A DNA stretch of 64,000 nucleotides from Shinella sp. H4-D48 (GTDB lineage Bacteria; Pseudomonadota; Alphaproteobacteria; Rhizobiales; Rhizobiaceae), in NCBI RefSeq assembly GCF_022637395.1, contig NZ_CP093337.1, positions 2,278,001 through 2,342,000 on the forward strand, given 5' to 3'. This document shows, one piece after another, positions 13,948-55,294 of the stretch. Below the pieces are notes generated by a model. It was not told where the DNA came from. It was given only the letters and a program-made list of their open reading frames with translations, and did no database searches. The translations under genes were made by a program, and so were the position numbers. How positions within the stretch are numbered: position 1 is the stretch's first letter; each line of letters starts with the position of its first letter.

Positions 13948-15843
13948 CTACTCCGCCGCAGGGGCGCCGCGCACGATGATGCCGAGATCGTCGCTCTCGC
14001 GCACCTGCTTGAGGCGTTCCTCGGCCTGCACGGCCTCGCGCTGGCGGTTCCACATGGAGGCGTAGAGGCCGTCGTCACGCTGCATGAGTTCGCCATGGGT
14101 GCCGCGCTCGGCAATCGCGCCGTCCTTCAACACGATGATCTCGTCGGCGGAAATGACCGTGGAAAGGCGGTGGGCGATGACCAGCGTGGTGCGGTTTTTC
14201 GAGACGATGTCCAGCGCCGCCTGAATTTCCTGTTCCGTGCGGGTATCGAGCGCGGAGGTCGCCTCATCGAGGATGAGGATGGGCGGGCTTTTCAGGATGG
14301 TGCGCGCGATGGCGACGCGCTGCTTCTCGCCGCCCGACAATTTCAGGCCGCGCTCGCCCACCATCGCCTTGAAGCCTTCGGGCAGCTGGTGGATGAACGG
14401 GCCGATCTGCGCGGCCTCGGCGGCGGCCACCACCTCCTCCTGGCTTGCATCGGGCCGGCCATAGCGGATGTTGTAGGCGATCGTGTCGTTGAACAGCACG
14501 GTATCCTGCGGCACCATGCCGATGACATGGCGCAAGCTCTTCTGCGTGACGTCGCGCACATCCTGCCCGTCGATGGTGATGGAACCCTCCTGCACATCGT
14601 AGAAGCGATAGAGCAGCCGCGACAGGGTGGACTTGCCGGCGCCAGACGGGCCGACGACCGCGACGGTCTTGCCGGCGGGCACGTCGAAGGAGACACCCTT
14701 GAGGATAGGCCGCGCGGGATCATAGGCGAAATGCACGTCGCGGAAGGAGATGGCGCCGGAGGAGATGACGAGATCGGCGGCGCCCGGCTTGTCCTGCACC
14801 TCTTCCTCAACCTCCAGGAGATCGAACATCTGCTCGATATCCGTCAGGCCCTGGCGGATTTCGCGATAGACGAAGCCGATGAAGTTGAGCGGAATGGCCA
14901 GCTGGATCAGCATGGCATTGATGAAGACGAAGTCGCCGAGTGTCTGATCGCCGCGCTGCACGGCGAACGCCGACATCGCCATCATGACCGCCATGCCGAT
15001 GCCGAAGATCAGCGCCTGGCCGAAGTTCAGCCAGCCGAGCGAGGTCCAGACCTGGGTCGCGGCCTTCTCGTAGCGCTCCATGGACTGGTCGAAGCGGCGG
15101 GCCTCCATATCCTCGTTGCCGAAATACTTCACCGTCTCGAAGTTCAGGAGCGAATCGATGGCCTTGGTGTTGGCCTCGGTGTCGCTGTCGTTCATCGAGC
15201 GGCGGATGGAGATGCGCCAGTCGGAGGCGCGAACCGTGAACCAGATGTAGAGCCAGACCGTGACGGCGGTGACGAGCAGATATTGCAGCCCGTAGCCCCA
15301 CCAGAAGATGGCGGCGGTCATCAGGAATTCGATGAAGGTCGGCACGCTGTTGAGGATCGTGAAGCGCACGATCGTCTCGATGCCCTTGGTGCCGCGCTCG
15401 ATGACGCGCGAAAGGCCGCCGGTGCGCCGCTCCAGATGAAAGCGCAGCGACAGGCGGTGCAGGTGGACGAATGTGCGGTAGGCAAGCTGGCGAACCGCAT
15501 ATTGCCCGACGCTGGCAAACAGCGCATCGCGCAGCTGGTTGAGGCCGGCCTGCAGGATGCGCGCGCCGTTATAGGCGAGCACCAGCATGACCGCGCCGAG
15601 CATGAAGACCGGCAGCAGGCCGACGGCGTCTGGCTTGCCGTTCAGCGCATCCGTCGCCCATTTGAAGAAATAGGGCACAAGCAGCAGCACGACCTTGGCG
15701 GCGAGCAGGAAGACCGAAGCCCACACAACCCGCATCTTCAGGTCGGGCCTGTCGGAGGGCCACATATAGGGCCAAAGGTTGACCAGCGTCCGGAGCGGAT
15801 TGCTGCTATCGGCCGAAACCGTCTTTTTCGTCGTCGTCGCCAC
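13948..15843 (-). CDS. ABC exporter of the ATM1/HMT1 heavy-metal and Fe-S group
   Basis: 631 aa half-transporter. I chose the GTG at 15843 because GGAGG lies six bases before it. The N-terminal membrane domain (about 20-330, six helices) starts with LRTLVNLWPYMWPSDRPDLK, typical of ATM1-like proteins. The ATPase domain has Walker A GPSGAGKST, signature LSGGEKQRVAIAR and Walker B ILILDEATSALD. Family members export glutathione-linked metal or persulfide species from the cytoplasm. The gene stands between psd and the LysM gene on the same strand but is bounded upstream by a terminator, so it is probably its own unit. Confidence 0.93.
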   Translation of the reverse strand: MATTTKKTVSADSSNPLRTLVNLWPYMWPSDRPDLKMRVVWASVFLLAAKVVLLLVPYFFKWATDALNGKPDAVGLLPVFMLGAVMLVLAYNGARILQAGLNQLRDALFASVGQYAVRQLAYRTFVHLHRLSLRFHLERRTGGLSRVIERGTKGIETIVRFTILNSVPTFIEFLMTAAIFWWGYGLQYLLVTAVTVWLYIWFTVRASDWRISIRRSMNDSDTEANTKAIDSLLNFETVKYFGNEDMEARRFDQSMERYEKAATQVWTSLGWLNFGQALIFGIGMAVMMAMSAFAVQRGDQTLGDFVFINAMLIQLAIPLNFIGFVYREIRQGLTDIEQMFDLLEVEEEVQDKPGAADLVISSGAISFRDVHFAYDPARPILKGVSFDVPAGKTVAVVGPSGAGKSTLSRLLYRFYDVQEGSITIDGQDVRDVTQKSLRHVIGMVPQDTVLFNDTIAYNIRYGRPDASQEEVVAAAEAAQIGPFIHQLPEGFKAMVGERGLKLSGGEKQRVAIARTILKSPPILILDEATSALDTRTEQEIQAALDIVSKNRTTLVIAHRLSTVISADEIIVLKDGAIAERGTHGELMQRDDGLYASMWNRQREAVQAEERLKQVRESDDLGIIVRGAPAAE

Positions 15844-48335: not shown

Positions 48336-49229
48336 TCAGACCGCGACCGCGATGCGGCCGATCTCGGCAATGATGGCGTTTCGTTCGTCGCCGGAAATAT
48401 CGGGCATTTCCACGAAGGCGGTCACCACGATCGCACCGCGATCCGGCGACCAGGCGATCGCGACATCGTTGGCGTTGCCGGCCTTGTCGCCGTTCGTTCC
48501 GGTCTTGTCGCCGGTCATCCAGTTCGCCGGAAAGCCGGCGCGCAGCCGCGTATCGCCCGTCTTGTTCATCACCAGCCAGGCGGCAAGCTGCGCCTTCGCA
48601 CGCGGCGAAAGCACGTCGCCGAGAACGAGCCTGTGCAGGGTGTCGGTCATGGCGGTCGGCGTCGTGGTGTCGCGCTCGTCGTTCGGCTTGTCGTGATAGT
48701 TCAGCGCCGGTTCCGTGCGGTCGAGGCGCGTGACCGTGTCGCCGCAACCGCGCAGGAAGGTCGTGACGGCTTCCGGCCCGCCCGACGCGGCAAGCAGCAG
48801 GTTCGCGGCGGCATTGTCGCTGAGCGTGATCGTCGCCTCGCACAGAGCGGCCACCGAGATGCCGGCACCGCCGACATGCTTTTCCACCACCGGCGACCAG
48901 TCGACGAGGTCCGATGTCTTGACGACGATGTGCCGGTCGAGCGTTTCCTCCCCGCGGTCGACGCGTGCGAGGATATGCGCCGCCAGCAGCGCCTTGAAGG
49001 TGCTGCACATCAGGAACCGCTCATCGGCCCGATGGCCAAGCCGGGCGCCCGTTGCGAGATTGTGTATGGCAACGCCGATGCGGCCCTTGTGGCGCGCTTC
49101 CAGTTCGGCGAGCCGCTTGCCGAGCGCGCCGTCGCCGGCGGCCCGAGCGGAGCCTGTCATTGCCGAAACGGCGGGAATCGCAAAGAGAGCGCCGGCCATC
49201 GCCTGCCGGCGTGAAATCGTCATCGTCAT
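48336..49229 (-). CDS. Class A beta-lactamase
   Basis: 297 aa from the ATG at 49229, with AGGAA upstream. A twin-arginine signal (ISRRQAMAGALFAIPAVS) precedes the mature enzyme. Catalytic motifs are complete: S76-T-F-K79, S137-D-N139, E173-P-A-L-N and K242-T-G. C75 lies next to the serine as in carbapenemases, but the partner cysteine after KTG is absent (KTGTNG), so no such disulfide. It hydrolyses beta-lactams in the periplasm. It is convergent with arsR and has no nearby AmpR-type regulator. The allele name cannot be set by eye. Confidence 0.93.
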   Translation of the reverse strand: MTMTISRRQAMAGALFAIPAVSAMTGSARAAGDGALGKRLAELEARHKGRIGVAIHNLATGARLGHRADERFLMCSTFKALLAAHILARVDRGEETLDRHIVVKTSDLVDWSPVVEKHVGGAGISVAALCEATITLSDNAAANLLLAASGGPEAVTTFLRGCGDTVTRLDRTEPALNYHDKPNDERDTTTPTAMTDTLHRLVLGDVLSPRAKAQLAAWLVMNKTGDTRLRAGFPANWMTGDKTGTNGDKAGNANDVAIAWSPDRGAIVVTAFVEMPDISGDERNAIIAEIGRIAVAV

Positions 49230-49366
49230 CCGTTCATTTCCTGTCTGCCGGTAACGGGCGCCTTGTGCGCCACACCGGTTTGAGCCCGCCCACATCGCGA
49301 CTATGCGCAACGGGCCGGGTCAAAACAAACGACGAATTCTGCCAGCAGCCATTAGGAAAACTAGGC

Positions 49367-51894: not shown

Positions 51895-52944
51895 ATGCGC
51901 AGTGCATTTCTCGCAACAGTCTCAATGGCGGCCCTCGCCGTGGCAGGGCCTGCGCATGCGACGACGCTCAGCCTGCTGATCTGGGAAGCCTACATCGACG
52001 AACAGGTGCTTGCCGACTTCACCGCCGAAACCGGCGCCGAGGTCCGGCAGACGCTCTATGACAGCGGCGACGTGCGCGACGAGATCCTCGCCGACCCCAA
52101 CAGCAATATCGACGTGGTGGTGACCAACGAGAACGGTGCCAAGCTCTACGGTAATCGCGGCATTCTGACGGCACTCGATACCGGCAACGTTCCTGCCCTG
52201 AAGGATTACGAGGACAGCTGGACCAAGCGCTGCGGCGGCTACGGCGTTCCCTATCTTTGGGGAACGATGGGCATCCTCTACCGCTCGGACAAGATCACGA
52301 CGCCGCCGACCTCCTGGGCCGACATCATGATGCCCGCGGAACCCCTGCGCGGCCATATCGCGATGTACGATGACCATGCCGAAGCCTTCGTCGCGCCGCT
52401 CGTGTTGCTCGGGAAATCGGTGAATGCCAACGATAACGAGACGCTCAAGGCCGCCTACGACATGATGAAGGCGCAGGCCCCCTATGTGCTGACCTATGAC
52501 TACGCCATCACCTCGGTTCAGAGCCCGGACAAGGGGCCGAACATCTGGATGGCGCTTGGCTATAGCGGCGACCAGTATACCCTCAACGGCAAGGTGGGCA
52601 CGCCGCACCTCTGGCGCTATGCCTTGCCCAAGGAAGGCACGCTGTCCTGGCTCGACTGCGTCTCGGTCAGCGAACGTTCGAAGCAGAAGGCGCTCGCGCT
52701 GAAGCTGGTCGATTACATCGGTAATGCGGAAAACAGCGCCCGCAACGCCGTCAAGCTCAACATGCCCACGGCAAACAAGGCGGCAATGGCGCTACTGCCG
52801 GAAGACATGCAATCCAATCCCGAAATCTATGCGGCCCCGGAAATCCTGGCAAAGAGCCAGCTTCAGGAGGAACTGACCGTTCAATCGGTGCAGGCCCGCC
52901 GTCGCATCCTCAGCAGTCTGGCTCAATTCAGTGACGCTCGGTAA
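51895..52944 (+). CDS. Periplasmic polyamine-type binding protein, NspS/PotD-like
   Basis: 349 aa from the ATG at 51895. A signal peptide is cut after AGPAHA, then the PotD-like start TTLSLLIWEAYIDEQVLADF, the region VVVTNENGAKLYGNRGILTA and the hallmark YGVPYLWGTMGILYRSDKI. No permease or ATPase genes accompany it, unlike a transport PotD. The next gene, a GGDEF-EAL membrane protein, overlaps it by 14 bases. This pairing is like Vibrio NspS with MbaA, where the binding protein senses norspermidine or spermidine and controls the cyclic-di-GMP enzyme. The ligand here is not proven. Confidence 0.87.
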   Translation: MRSAFLATVSMAALAVAGPAHATTLSLLIWEAYIDEQVLADFTAETGAEVRQTLYDSGDVRDEILADPNSNIDVVVTNENGAKLYGNRGILTALDTGNVPALKDYEDSWTKRCGGYGVPYLWGTMGILYRSDKITTPPTSWADIMMPAEPLRGHIAMYDDHAEAFVAPLVLLGKSVNANDNETLKAAYDMMKAQAPYVLTYDYAITSVQSPDKGPNIWMALGYSGDQYTLNGKVGTPHLWRYALPKEGTLSWLDCVSVSERSKQKALALKLVDYIGNAENSARNAVKLNMPTANKAAMALLPEDMQSNPEIYAAPEILAKSQLQEELTVQSVQARRRILSSLAQFSDAR

Positions 52945-55294
52945 ACGCGCCCTCGCCCTTATCTTCCCGGTCGTTCTGGCAGGCTATGTGCTTGCAGCCT
53001 CGCTCATCTACTATGTGCAGAGCTCGTCCATCGCCGGGCTGGAGCGCGCGCGCCTCTGGCAGCAGATCGGCATGCTGACCGCCGTCTTCCAGAACGACGT
53101 GATGCAGAACCGCAGCTTCCTGTATTCGCTCGTTGAAGGCGGTGCGGTGCGTCTCTTCGTCAACGAACCGAATGCCGATTACCGCCGTATGGCGCTCGGC
53201 GTGCGGCTGCAGCAGAGTATCACGTCTCTCTCCGACGACCGCAAACGCTTTATTTCTGCCGCCATCATTCGCCCGCCCCTGACGGTGGATTACTATTTCG
53301 AGGACAGCGCCGATCCCTTCGCCGAGATCACACCGCAGCAACTCGAACACATCCGCCATACCATAGACAGCCCACGGCTGTCCTCGTGGTCCTACCTCGA
53401 CACGCCGGGCATCGAACCGCTCATCGTGCATTCCGAATTCATCGACCCCGTGACCTTCAACCGCCCGGTCGCCAGCGCCAAAGCCGAATCGATCCTGGTC
53501 CAGACGGCAGTGCGCCCGAAGGCCTTTCTCGAATTGAAGCGGGCGCTCGAGAAGGAATATGGCGCAACCGTCGAGATCGCACGGCATCAGTTCCTTGCGC
53601 AGGGCGGGCTTTCGGCGACCGCCACGCTCGGCCCGTCGCTCTTTGCACGCCTGACGCCGGAGCCGGGTTTTCTGGAGGAACGGCTTTCGACGCTCAGAAT
53701 GCTTCTGGCGCTCGGCGCCATCGCGCTCAGCCTGTGCACCATCGTTCTCGTGCTGGTGCTGGTTCGCCGCTACATCACCAACCCGATCGCCCGCCTTGAC
53801 CGCCAACTAACCGAAGTCATGACCGGCAATCGCAGCGCCCTGCCCGAAATGCACGAGATCGGCGAAATCGGCCGCCTCTCCGTGAACGTCAAGCGCCTGC
53901 ACGACCAGTCCATGCACTCCTTCGATCTCGTGCAAAACGCCTCCTGGACGGATACGCTGACCGGGATCTCCAACCGCGAATACTTCAACATCCGCTCGAC
54001 GCAGCTGCTCGAAGAGGCCGAGGAAGCCGGCATCGGCTGCACGCTGCTGTTCATCGACGTGGACAACTTCAAATTCGTCAACGACAAGCATGGCCACAAG
54101 ATCGGCGACGAACTGCTCAAGACGCTGGCAGACCGCATCTCGGCGATCGTCGCACGTATTGTCATTGAGCGCGGCCTTCCGGCCGGGTTGTTCGCCCGCC
54201 TTTCGGGGGACGAATTCGCCATCATGCTGCGCTGCCAGCCCGGCGCGGGAACGATCACCGAACTGTCCGGCAATATCCTGGCGCTGTTTGCGGAGGGATT
54301 CGAAGTACTGGAAAAGGCCTATCCGGTCACAGCCAGCATCGGCATCGCGGTCTACCCTGAAGACGCGCGCACACTGCCCGAACTCATCGCCAATGCCGAC
54401 GCGGCTATGTATCAGGCAAAATCGCAGGGCAAGAACGGTTCGGCCCGCTATTCCCGCTCCCTGCACGAGAAGCGCAACCGTCAGCGCCGCATCGAGGAGG
54501 AACTGCGCATCCTCAATGCCGACGAGCAGTTCCATCTGGTTTACATGCCCATCGTCAACGGTCAGGGCAAGGTCACGGGCTGCGAGGCGCTGCTGCGCTG
54601 GACCTCACCGGTGCTGGGGAATGTCACCCCGGACGAATTCATTCCCATCGCCGAAACGACGGGCCTGTTCAGCAAGATCGACTGGTGGGTGATCAACCGC
54701 GCGATGGCCGACTATGGCCATGTGAGGAAGCTCTTCGGCGCCGAGACCATCCTGTGCATCAACATTTCGTCCGCCGAACTCTACACCAAGTCGATCAGCG
54801 ATCACTTCTGCGACTGCGCCGACAGGCATGGCGTCGATGCGCGGCTGATCGAGATCGAGCTGACGGAAACCTTCGCGGTCAAGCTCGGCGAGCAGTCCCG
54901 CCGCAACATCGAGATCTTGCGCGCCAAGGGCTTCCGCATCTCGATCGACGATTTCGGCGCCGGATATACGTCCGTGCAGCAGATCATCGAGTACCCGGCT
55001 GAAACCATCAAGCTCGACCGTGAACTGGTGGAAAGCCTGACCCGGTCGGCCGCCCTTCCCACCTTGCGCGCGCTGATCGCGCTCTGCCACGCGCAGGACA
55101 TGTCGGTCATTGCCGAAGGGGTCGATACGCCGGAGAAGATGTCGCTGCTCGCCGCGGCAGGCTGCGACCTCTACCAGGGCTATCTCATCAGCCGCCCGCT
55201 TGCGCTCGACGACCTCGGCGTCTGGGCCATGCAGCGCCTGCTGGACACGGCACGCGAAACGATGCGGTCGGCAGAGCGCCGCGCACAGGGCTAA
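52931..55294 (+). CDS. Membrane GGDEF-EAL cyclic-di-GMP enzyme
   Basis: 787 aa from the GTG at 52931, overlapping the binding protein gene by 14 bases. A membrane helix at about 8-28, a 230-residue periplasmic sensor region, and a second helix at about 257-281, then a HAMP-like linker. The GGDEF domain has SGDEF at 425-429, degenerate by one residue; the EAL domain starts CEALLRW at E552, with NISSAEL, EIELTET, DDFGAGYTS and IKLDRELV all intact. So phosphodiesterase activity is likely and cyclase activity uncertain. It probably receives the polyamine signal from the paired protein. Confidence 0.92.
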   Translation: MTLGKRALALIFPVVLAGYVLAASLIYYVQSSSIAGLERARLWQQIGMLTAVFQNDVMQNRSFLYSLVEGGAVRLFVNEPNADYRRMALGVRLQQSITSLSDDRKRFISAAIIRPPLTVDYYFEDSADPFAEITPQQLEHIRHTIDSPRLSSWSYLDTPGIEPLIVHSEFIDPVTFNRPVASAKAESILVQTAVRPKAFLELKRALEKEYGATVEIARHQFLAQGGLSATATLGPSLFARLTPEPGFLEERLSTLRMLLALGAIALSLCTIVLVLVLVRRYITNPIARLDRQLTEVMTGNRSALPEMHEIGEIGRLSVNVKRLHDQSMHSFDLVQNASWTDTLTGISNREYFNIRSTQLLEEAEEAGIGCTLLFIDVDNFKFVNDKHGHKIGDELLKTLADRISAIVARIVIERGLPAGLFARLSGDEFAIMLRCQPGAGTITELSGNILALFAEGFEVLEKAYPVTASIGIAVYPEDARTLPELIANADAAMYQAKSQGKNGSARYSRSLHEKRNRQRRIEEELRILNADEQFHLVYMPIVNGQGKVTGCEALLRWTSPVLGNVTPDEFIPIAETTGLFSKIDWWVINRAMADYGHVRKLFGAETILCINISSAELYTKSISDHFCDCADRHGVDARLIEIELTETFAVKLGEQSRRNIEILRAKGFRISIDDFGAGYTSVQQIIEYPAETIKLDRELVESLTRSAALPTLRALIALCHAQDMSVIAEGVDTPEKMSLLAAAGCDLYQGYLISRPLALDDLGVWAMQRLLDTARETMRSAERRAQG

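Follow-up and report, generated by a model that had tools for sequence, protein, structure and literature searches.

The window considered here is a 64-kb stretch of the genome of Shinella sp. H4-D48 (NZ_CP093337.1, positions 2,278,001 to 2,342,000). It carries two overlapping genes, nspS and mbaA, that resemble the NspS-MbaA sensor pairs of Vibrio cholerae and Sinorhizobium meliloti. The genes and the features of their products are the following:

51895 to 52944, plus strand: nspS, from ATG to TAA, encoding a periplasmic polyamine-binding-type protein of 349 amino acids
52931 to 52944, plus strand: overlap of nspS and mbaA, 14 nt shared by the end of nspS and the GTG start of mbaA
52931 to 55294, plus strand: mbaA, from GTG to TAA, encoding a membrane GGDEF-EAL protein of 787 amino acids
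53012 to 53683, plus strand: periplasmic region of MbaA, residues 28 to 251 approximately, without a convincing Pfam family
54203 to 54217, plus strand: SGDEF signature in the diguanylate cyclase domain of MbaA, residues 425 to 429
54512 to 55198, plus strand: EAL phosphodiesterase domain of MbaA, a Pfam match over residues 528 to 756

The product of nspS matches the Pfam family SBP_bac_8 (E 5.8e-29) and starts with a stretch that, judged by eye, looks like a signal peptide. MbaA matches both GGDEF (E 1.3e-36) and EAL (E 4.3e-61), and its hydropathy profile contains two hydrophobic stretches (19-residue segments starting at positions 3-12 and 252-268) with about 220 residues between them. A previous interpretation, made from the nucleotide letters alone and here called the sequence-only reading, had proposed a 14-base overlap and a large periplasmic region between two helices of MbaA. 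Both are borne out, the former by the end of nspS at 52944 and the start of mbaA at 52931, the latter by the hydropathy. Within 30 nt upstream of the GTG codon no clear ribosome-binding sequence is seen by eye; because of this and the overlap, translation of the two genes is likely to be coupled. A scan for promoters found 1 site (mean of shuffled sequences 1.0) and one for terminators 4 (mean 3.1). The ratios of nonsynonymous to synonymous substitution rates (dN/dS) are low. For nspS they amount to 0.09 and 0.19 against the relatives G014 and G016 and to 0.16 against each of two more relatives; for mbaA they are 0.03 and 0.11 against G014 and G016, the other two of the four comparisons involving differing lengths. 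Therefore, both genes are maintained under purifying selection.

Both proteins were aligned with their relatives, in 44 rows for NspS and 48 for MbaA. The NspS alignment includes L127 and holds two rows from one genome (G007), and four loci without an adjoining nspS (L126, L128, L129 and L131) contribute to the MbaA alignment alone. The 44 and the 48 rows each include Shinella sp. PSBB067 (L133), both proteins of which are identical to those of G011 (L105). All ten positions of the EAL domain that were examined are present in MbaA of the window (E552, R556, N611, E643, E646, D673, D674, K694, E729 and Q749), with the EAL motif at 552, and the intact EAL domain of the sequence-only reading thus stands. 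Six of these, R556, E646, D673, K694, E729 and Q749, were chosen as positions that we take to be catalytic. E552, N611, E643 and D674 are the four named as Mg-binding in work on S. meliloti (PMC9993111; here and below, papers are cited from excerpts of their text). The domain itself is lacking in one protein (G107); of the ten positions, eight are kept in each of the other 47 rows, and two are kept in 46 of these. In the SGDEF signature, G426, D427, E428 and F429 are invariant (48/48 rows), and the first position is S in 46 rows and A in two. The sequence-only reading had rightly noted SGDEF but called it degenerate by one residue, which does not hold, serine being the conserved state of the family. 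For the same reason, SGDEF was rejected as a mark of decay. A HAMP linker, as described for S. meliloti MbaA, gave no Pfam match in MbaA of the window.

Since the core residues of SGDEF are invariant and the EAL positions are kept, MbaA is predicted to be capable of both synthesis and breakdown of cyclic di-GMP (c-di-GMP). The polyamine response of V. cholerae depends on the SGDEF domain of MbaA; norspermidine is reported to lead to synthesis of c-di-GMP and spermidine to its degradation, the SGDEF protein being active in vivo (PMC8079147). It appears unlikely that the Shinella protein is a phosphodiesterase only, with an inactive SGDEF site. The first glycine of the motif is indeed replaced, and older work on V. 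cholerae took SGDEF as inert, but serine is the family norm at this place, the remaining motif residues do not vary, and synthesis by the V. cholerae SGDEF protein in vivo is on record (PMC8079147).

The periplasmic region of MbaA aligns with 24 other rows at 24-81% identity, among them S. meliloti at 50% and two rows from Vibrio-like genomes at 27 and 24% ("Vibrio-like" is a provisional label, resting in part on likeness to published pairs). Over the whole N-terminal region, identity is about 49% to S. meliloti and 22-27% to two Vibrio-like pairs. A motif Y-x-E-x-S-x-D-P-F-A at residues 122-131 is nearly invariant over the 25 rows, from Rhizobiaceae to Vibrio-like. Judged by this alignment, the region is homologous to that of known MbaA proteins, which goes beyond a shared architecture. 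Pfam gave chance-level matches alone for these 25 members (for example dCache_1, E 0.058, in 2 members), and a sequence search for solved relatives gave none (best E 0.51, unrelated). A Cache-like fold would be a guess.

The distribution of the two genes was followed with E thresholds of our own choosing (1e-60 for NspS in the genus, 1e-50 for NspS in the family and 1e-15 for the MbaA N-terminal region). The MbaA query was restricted to residues 1-267, leaving out the common GGDEF-EAL part. NspS orthologues are found in all 21 genomes of the genus Shinella. Among 247 Rhizobiaceae genomes, 27 contain NspS; exactly the same 27 contain the MbaA region, and mbaA adjoins nspS in each of them. Whether the two genes always co-occur in the family, a question raised by the sequence-only reading, can be answered positively for this sample. 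Further Shinella loci bring the genus genomes in which an adjoining mbaA was read to 12 of the 21. In all 38 Rhizobiaceae pair loci that were read, the genes lie on the same strand and overlap, by 14 nt in 21 loci and by 4 nt in 17.

The MbaA region occurs in 12 of 398 genomes of a phylum sample, two of them Rhizobiaceae, and in a class sample of 385 genomes it is confined to the genome of the window itself. Vibrio-like genomes of group f53 matched it in the phylum search with E values from 8.5e-22 to 3.8e-13 (seven rows). Ten non-Rhizobiaceae genomes have MbaA. In six of them nspS adjoins mbaA: the genes overlap by 14 nt in three genomes and by 17 nt in two, and in G326 they are separated by 242 nt. 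The other four have no nspS beside mbaA. Three of these four (G605, G439 and G585; loci L126, L128 and L131) are Vibrio-like and have kept mbaA among neighbours as in a pair-bearing genome. A whole-genome profile search for NspS found none in them, the best matches of 180-182 bits being at the level of PotD-like paralogues. In the fourth (G509, L129), the same type of search found an NspS-like gene elsewhere (294.8 bits).

NspS itself belongs to the same sequence family as the transport proteins PotD and PotF, which are its best named matches, and has several pocket residues in common with them. The scores, 103.9 bits for PotD and 99.2 bits for PotF, are far from the equivalog cut-offs of 582 and 636, respectively. 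It could be imagined that NspS is a remnant or a part of a polyamine ABC transporter that lies beside a c-di-GMP enzyme by chance, the more so as five of the six other PotD-like proteins of the genome have a Pot-type permease or ATPase match within 1.5 kb (L002, L004, L005, L006 and L007, not L003). At E <= 1e-5, however, E. coli PotA, PotB, PotC, PotG, PotH and PotI have no match between 46000 and 64000 (L074, about 6 kb upstream and 9 kb downstream of the pair), and the permeases PotB, PotC, PotH and PotI have none in the whole window, where the best PotA/PotG-like ATPase match is at 14056-14751. This agrees with the sequence-only reading, which had described a PotD-like protein without permease or ATPase genes. 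That reading had also considered that a pot operon beside the pair in other strains would mark it as a transport remnant; none of the 38 Rhizobiaceae pair loci, of 14-18 kb, has a PotB/C/H/I-type permease match. ATPase matches without a permease occur in one locus of a second, divergent type (L098; PotA, E 1.3e-27) and in eight Vibrio-like loci, which contain a 555-aa ABC protein. Combined with the exact co-occurrence of the genes in Rhizobiaceae, their low dN/dS and the cysteines discussed below, this makes it most improbable that NspS is such a remnant or part.

NspS differs from PotD and PotF in having no adjoining transporter genes, in E31 and Y223, which replace T/S and W, and in two extra cysteines. 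C113 and C255 are present in 44/44 NspS rows, and are absent from PotD and PotF of E. coli and from 18/18 other PotD-like proteins of the window's and other genomes. In total, 20 non-NspS binding proteins were compared; besides the 18 without either cysteine, two (L146 and L150) have both, and both adjoin GGDEF-EAL genes. Transporter neighbours were checked for six of the 20, those of the window's genome. The two cysteines may form a disulfide. The words "cysteine" and "disulfide" do not occur in the main text of PMC9993111, and a search of the open-licence literature for NspS, disulfide and polyamine gave no paper on NspS, the V. cholerae mutagenesis of Young et al. lying outside its scope. 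A second kind of pair was observed at L160:4074-7538 and L161:4541-8002, in which a two-cysteine binding protein is followed after 3 nt by a GGDEF-EAL protein of 808-809 aa; the N-terminal region of the latter, compared for L160 alone, has no BLAST similarity to MbaA.

The predicted norspermidine contacts of V. cholerae NspS are W41, D70, D90, F131, Y233, D236, W261 and D263 (PMC9993111). Their numbering was transferred through a Vibrio-like row with a constant offset of 13, all eight letters agreeing. NspS of the window keeps six of them, as W30, D59, Y223, D226, W252 and D254 (for W41, D70, Y233, D236, W261 and D263, respectively), and has N78 for D90 and L121 for F131. Furthermore, A32 takes the place of E36 in PotD and D39 in PotF (D43 in V. 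cholerae NspS), and the D39 position is reported to be at least 96% conserved among PotF relatives (PMC8666671). An acidic residue is found at position 32 in 6 of the 44 rows and at position 78 in 8 of them. In S. meliloti NspS none of the eight contacts is changed and position 32 is D, and D is also present at both positions in the two closest Vibrio-like rows. Because positions 32 and 78 are mostly non-acidic, the contact conservation published for S. meliloti is not carried over to most rows. D160 and E163 match the distal spermidine-binding residues D168 and E171 of PotD. Since E31, D59, D160, E163, D226 and D254 are still there, the remaining negative charge would be enough for a polyamine. 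The ligand is probably a di- or polyamine, not necessarily norspermidine, for which the pocket seems to offer no special support in Shinella.

It is possible, if still somewhat doubtful, that the loss of carboxylates has shifted the ligand from norspermidine or spermidine to another cation, such as putrescine or homospermidine, a polyamine of rhizobia, which would refine the idea of a polyamine sensor and not replace it. Apart from A32 and N78 themselves, this would fit the polyamine enzymes of the genome and the fact that the nspS-dependent effect in S. meliloti 1021 is seen with putrescine or spermine (PMC9993111). On the other hand, the six acidic residues listed above would still fit a long polyamine, and W252 gives the aromatic box its PotD-like state, the F-to-W exchange in PotF being reported to favour spermidine (PMC8666671). 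Loci L136 and L135 of the genome hold a pair of genes like those for carboxy(nor)spermidine dehydrogenase and decarboxylase, as well as a homospermidine synthase gene, which matches solved enzymes at E 1.7e-236. The carboxynorspermidine-synthase-like gene (452.4 of 800 bits) lies beside the decarboxylase-like gene (403.8 of 409.05 bits), both scoring below cut-off. S. meliloti makes spermidine via a carboxyspermidine dehydrogenase (PMC13293326), and by analogy this gene pair probably yields spermidine, or less probably norspermidine. Going further, one may speculate that most rhizobial NspS proteins have lost the two pocket carboxylates and now sense another cation, perhaps homospermidine or host putrescine, through the same enzyme partner, and that C113 and C255 set the sensor type apart and may lock a shape that docks on MbaA. 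This joint interpretation is unlikely to hold in full.

The pair is the Shinella version of a known sensor; it is not new, and represents a modest addition to a published system. The S. meliloti pair has been studied with nspS mutants in a 2023 paper that also lists Shinella pairs and reports SGDEF in MbaA of both S. meliloti and V. cholerae (PMC9993111). Compared through CP090106.1 (strain Ak57), the S. meliloti pair (smc00991-smc00992) has an NspS that is 56% identical to that of Shinella. It comes from the same family, Rhizobiaceae, and shares SGDEF, the intact EAL, overlapping genes and the lack of an adjoining transporter match. It differs in keeping eight instead of six of the eight predicted contacts, in its 4-nt overlap, as against 14 nt in the window, and in its location between ubiA/MFS and purD genes, as against tex and era. 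The published overlaps of 13 bp in a few Shinella and 3 bp in Sinorhizobium (PMC9993111) appear to be the same ones counted one base shorter. The sequence CP090106.1 (L132) is labelled plasmid pSymB, yet it is 3.7 Mb long with glyS and purD, and is probably a mislabelled chromosome.

V. cholerae was compared through its published residue list (PMC9993111) and through Vibrio-like relatives that align over both proteins. It shares the gene layout, the PotD-like sensor, SGDEF and the membrane GGDEF-EAL enzyme. Thus, homology of both proteins and gene layout support the likeness to the V. cholerae pair put forward by the sequence-only reading. MbaA of V. cholerae has EVL where that of Shinella has EAL (PMC9993111, PMC8079147), the positions of D43 and D90 are A32 and N78 in Shinella NspS, and NspS identity between two Vibrio-like pairs and Shinella is about 30-31%.

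On this basis, the nspS-mbaA locus very probably encodes a polyamine-type sensor pair that tunes c-di-GMP. NspS would be exported and bind a small polyamine-like cation in the periplasm. In one ligand state it would dock on the periplasmic region of MbaA, and this docking would tip the enzyme between synthesis of c-di-GMP by SGDEF and breakdown by EAL. The shift in c-di-GMP might then tune biofilm, exopolysaccharide or motility. Export is predicted from the N-terminus of NspS; binding, docking, direction of the switch and output follow the V. cholerae and S. meliloti systems by analogy. In S. meliloti 1021, putrescine or spermine lowers biofilm and exopolysaccharide, an effect that an nspS mutant does not show (PMC9993111).

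Several observations weigh against this interpretation. The pocket departs from the V. cholerae one at two of the eight contacts and at A32. Because mbaA lacks an adjoining nspS in four of the ten non-family genomes, three of which are without any, MbaA can apparently persist without NspS and would not always be driven by it; such orphan proteins might act by themselves or use a different binding protein. With 28 GGDEF matches in the Shinella genome, losing one GGDEF protein may have a small effect. The structure models are of low confidence (pLDDT 33.6 for NspS and 42.5 for MbaA residues 1-333), and no inference was drawn from them. The S. meliloti results are mixed: two strains respond differently, no pair of polyamines acts in opposite directions, motility is little changed by nspS, and the mutant in nspS probably fails to express MbaA as well (PMC9993111).

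Further observations concern the location and relationships of the pair. Five named NspS matches, at 83-95% identity, are all from Shinella, namely S. sumterensis, S. yambaruensis, S. granuli, Shinella sp. SUS2 and S. fusca. By sequence reading, the pair of the window sits between tex and era; tex, era, rnc, lepB and recO are the names that we take to apply to these neighbouring genes. In 30 Rhizobiaceae era loci, the best-scoring among 60 matching genomes, recO is no more than 1.5 kb away from era in 16 and adjoins it directly in 13. In the window, tex, nspS-mbaA, a beta-lactamase gene and others separate era from recO, which suggests that the pair is in an insertion or rearrangement at this junction. 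Over 39 loci, two of them outside Rhizobiaceae, 17 have the tex-era address, 15 share the S. meliloti location, with ubiA (and often an MFS gene) on one side and purD on the other, and 7 have neither. The overlap tracks the address: all 17 tex-era loci overlap by 14 nt and all 15 ubiA-purD loci by 4 nt.

About 2.6 kb from nspS-mbaA, on the minus strand at 48336-49310, a class A beta-lactamase scores 605.5 bits with the BKC/GPC carbapenemase family model (cut-off 575). Shinella has been argued to be the source of BKC-1 and GPC-1 in a 2020 paper that centres on the beta-lactamase and not on the sensor (PMC7674036). The figure legend of the blaGPC/BKC locus there already contains "Nsps, norspermidine sensor" and "Pd, phosphodiesterase", together with Era, RecO, an L,D-transpeptidase protein, a glyoxalase protein and an ArsR regulator (PMC7674036). 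The window likewise has a BKC/GPC-family gene next to nspS-mbaA, the comparison with the published locus being one of gene names.

A divergent second type of the pair was also observed in Rhizobiaceae, at L098 (G007), L096 (G248) and L097 (G107), with NspS identities of 45-48%; in one Shinella (G007) it is a second copy. MbaA of G107 has 512 aa with AGDEF and without an EAL domain, which may be real or an assembly fault. In a tree of the concatenated proteins, the Shinella-type rows and the remaining main rhizobial rows form one group (35 rows, support 99), and the second type (G107, G248 and copy 2 of G007) stands apart from this group; the tree was made by a quick method with SH-aLRT support only and midpoint rooting, and with its long branches the deeper placement is unsure. 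Published text sets some Shinella beside Pseudomonas clades, which raised the possibility of horizontal transfer from Pseudomonas-like donors; it was rejected since the tree places the Shinella-type rows with the main rhizobial ones instead.

In the open-licence literature, we found no earlier account of the altered Shinella pocket, of the rule on cysteines or of the two addresses. In the survey of 247 genomes, either both nspS and mbaA are there, side by side, or neither is. In Shinella, nspS is part of every genome searched (21/21), mostly at an address unlike that of Sinorhizobium. The cysteine pair provides a sequence rule that may separate sensor-type from transport-type binding proteins, and the residue differences in NspS lead to a simple prediction on the choice of ligand.

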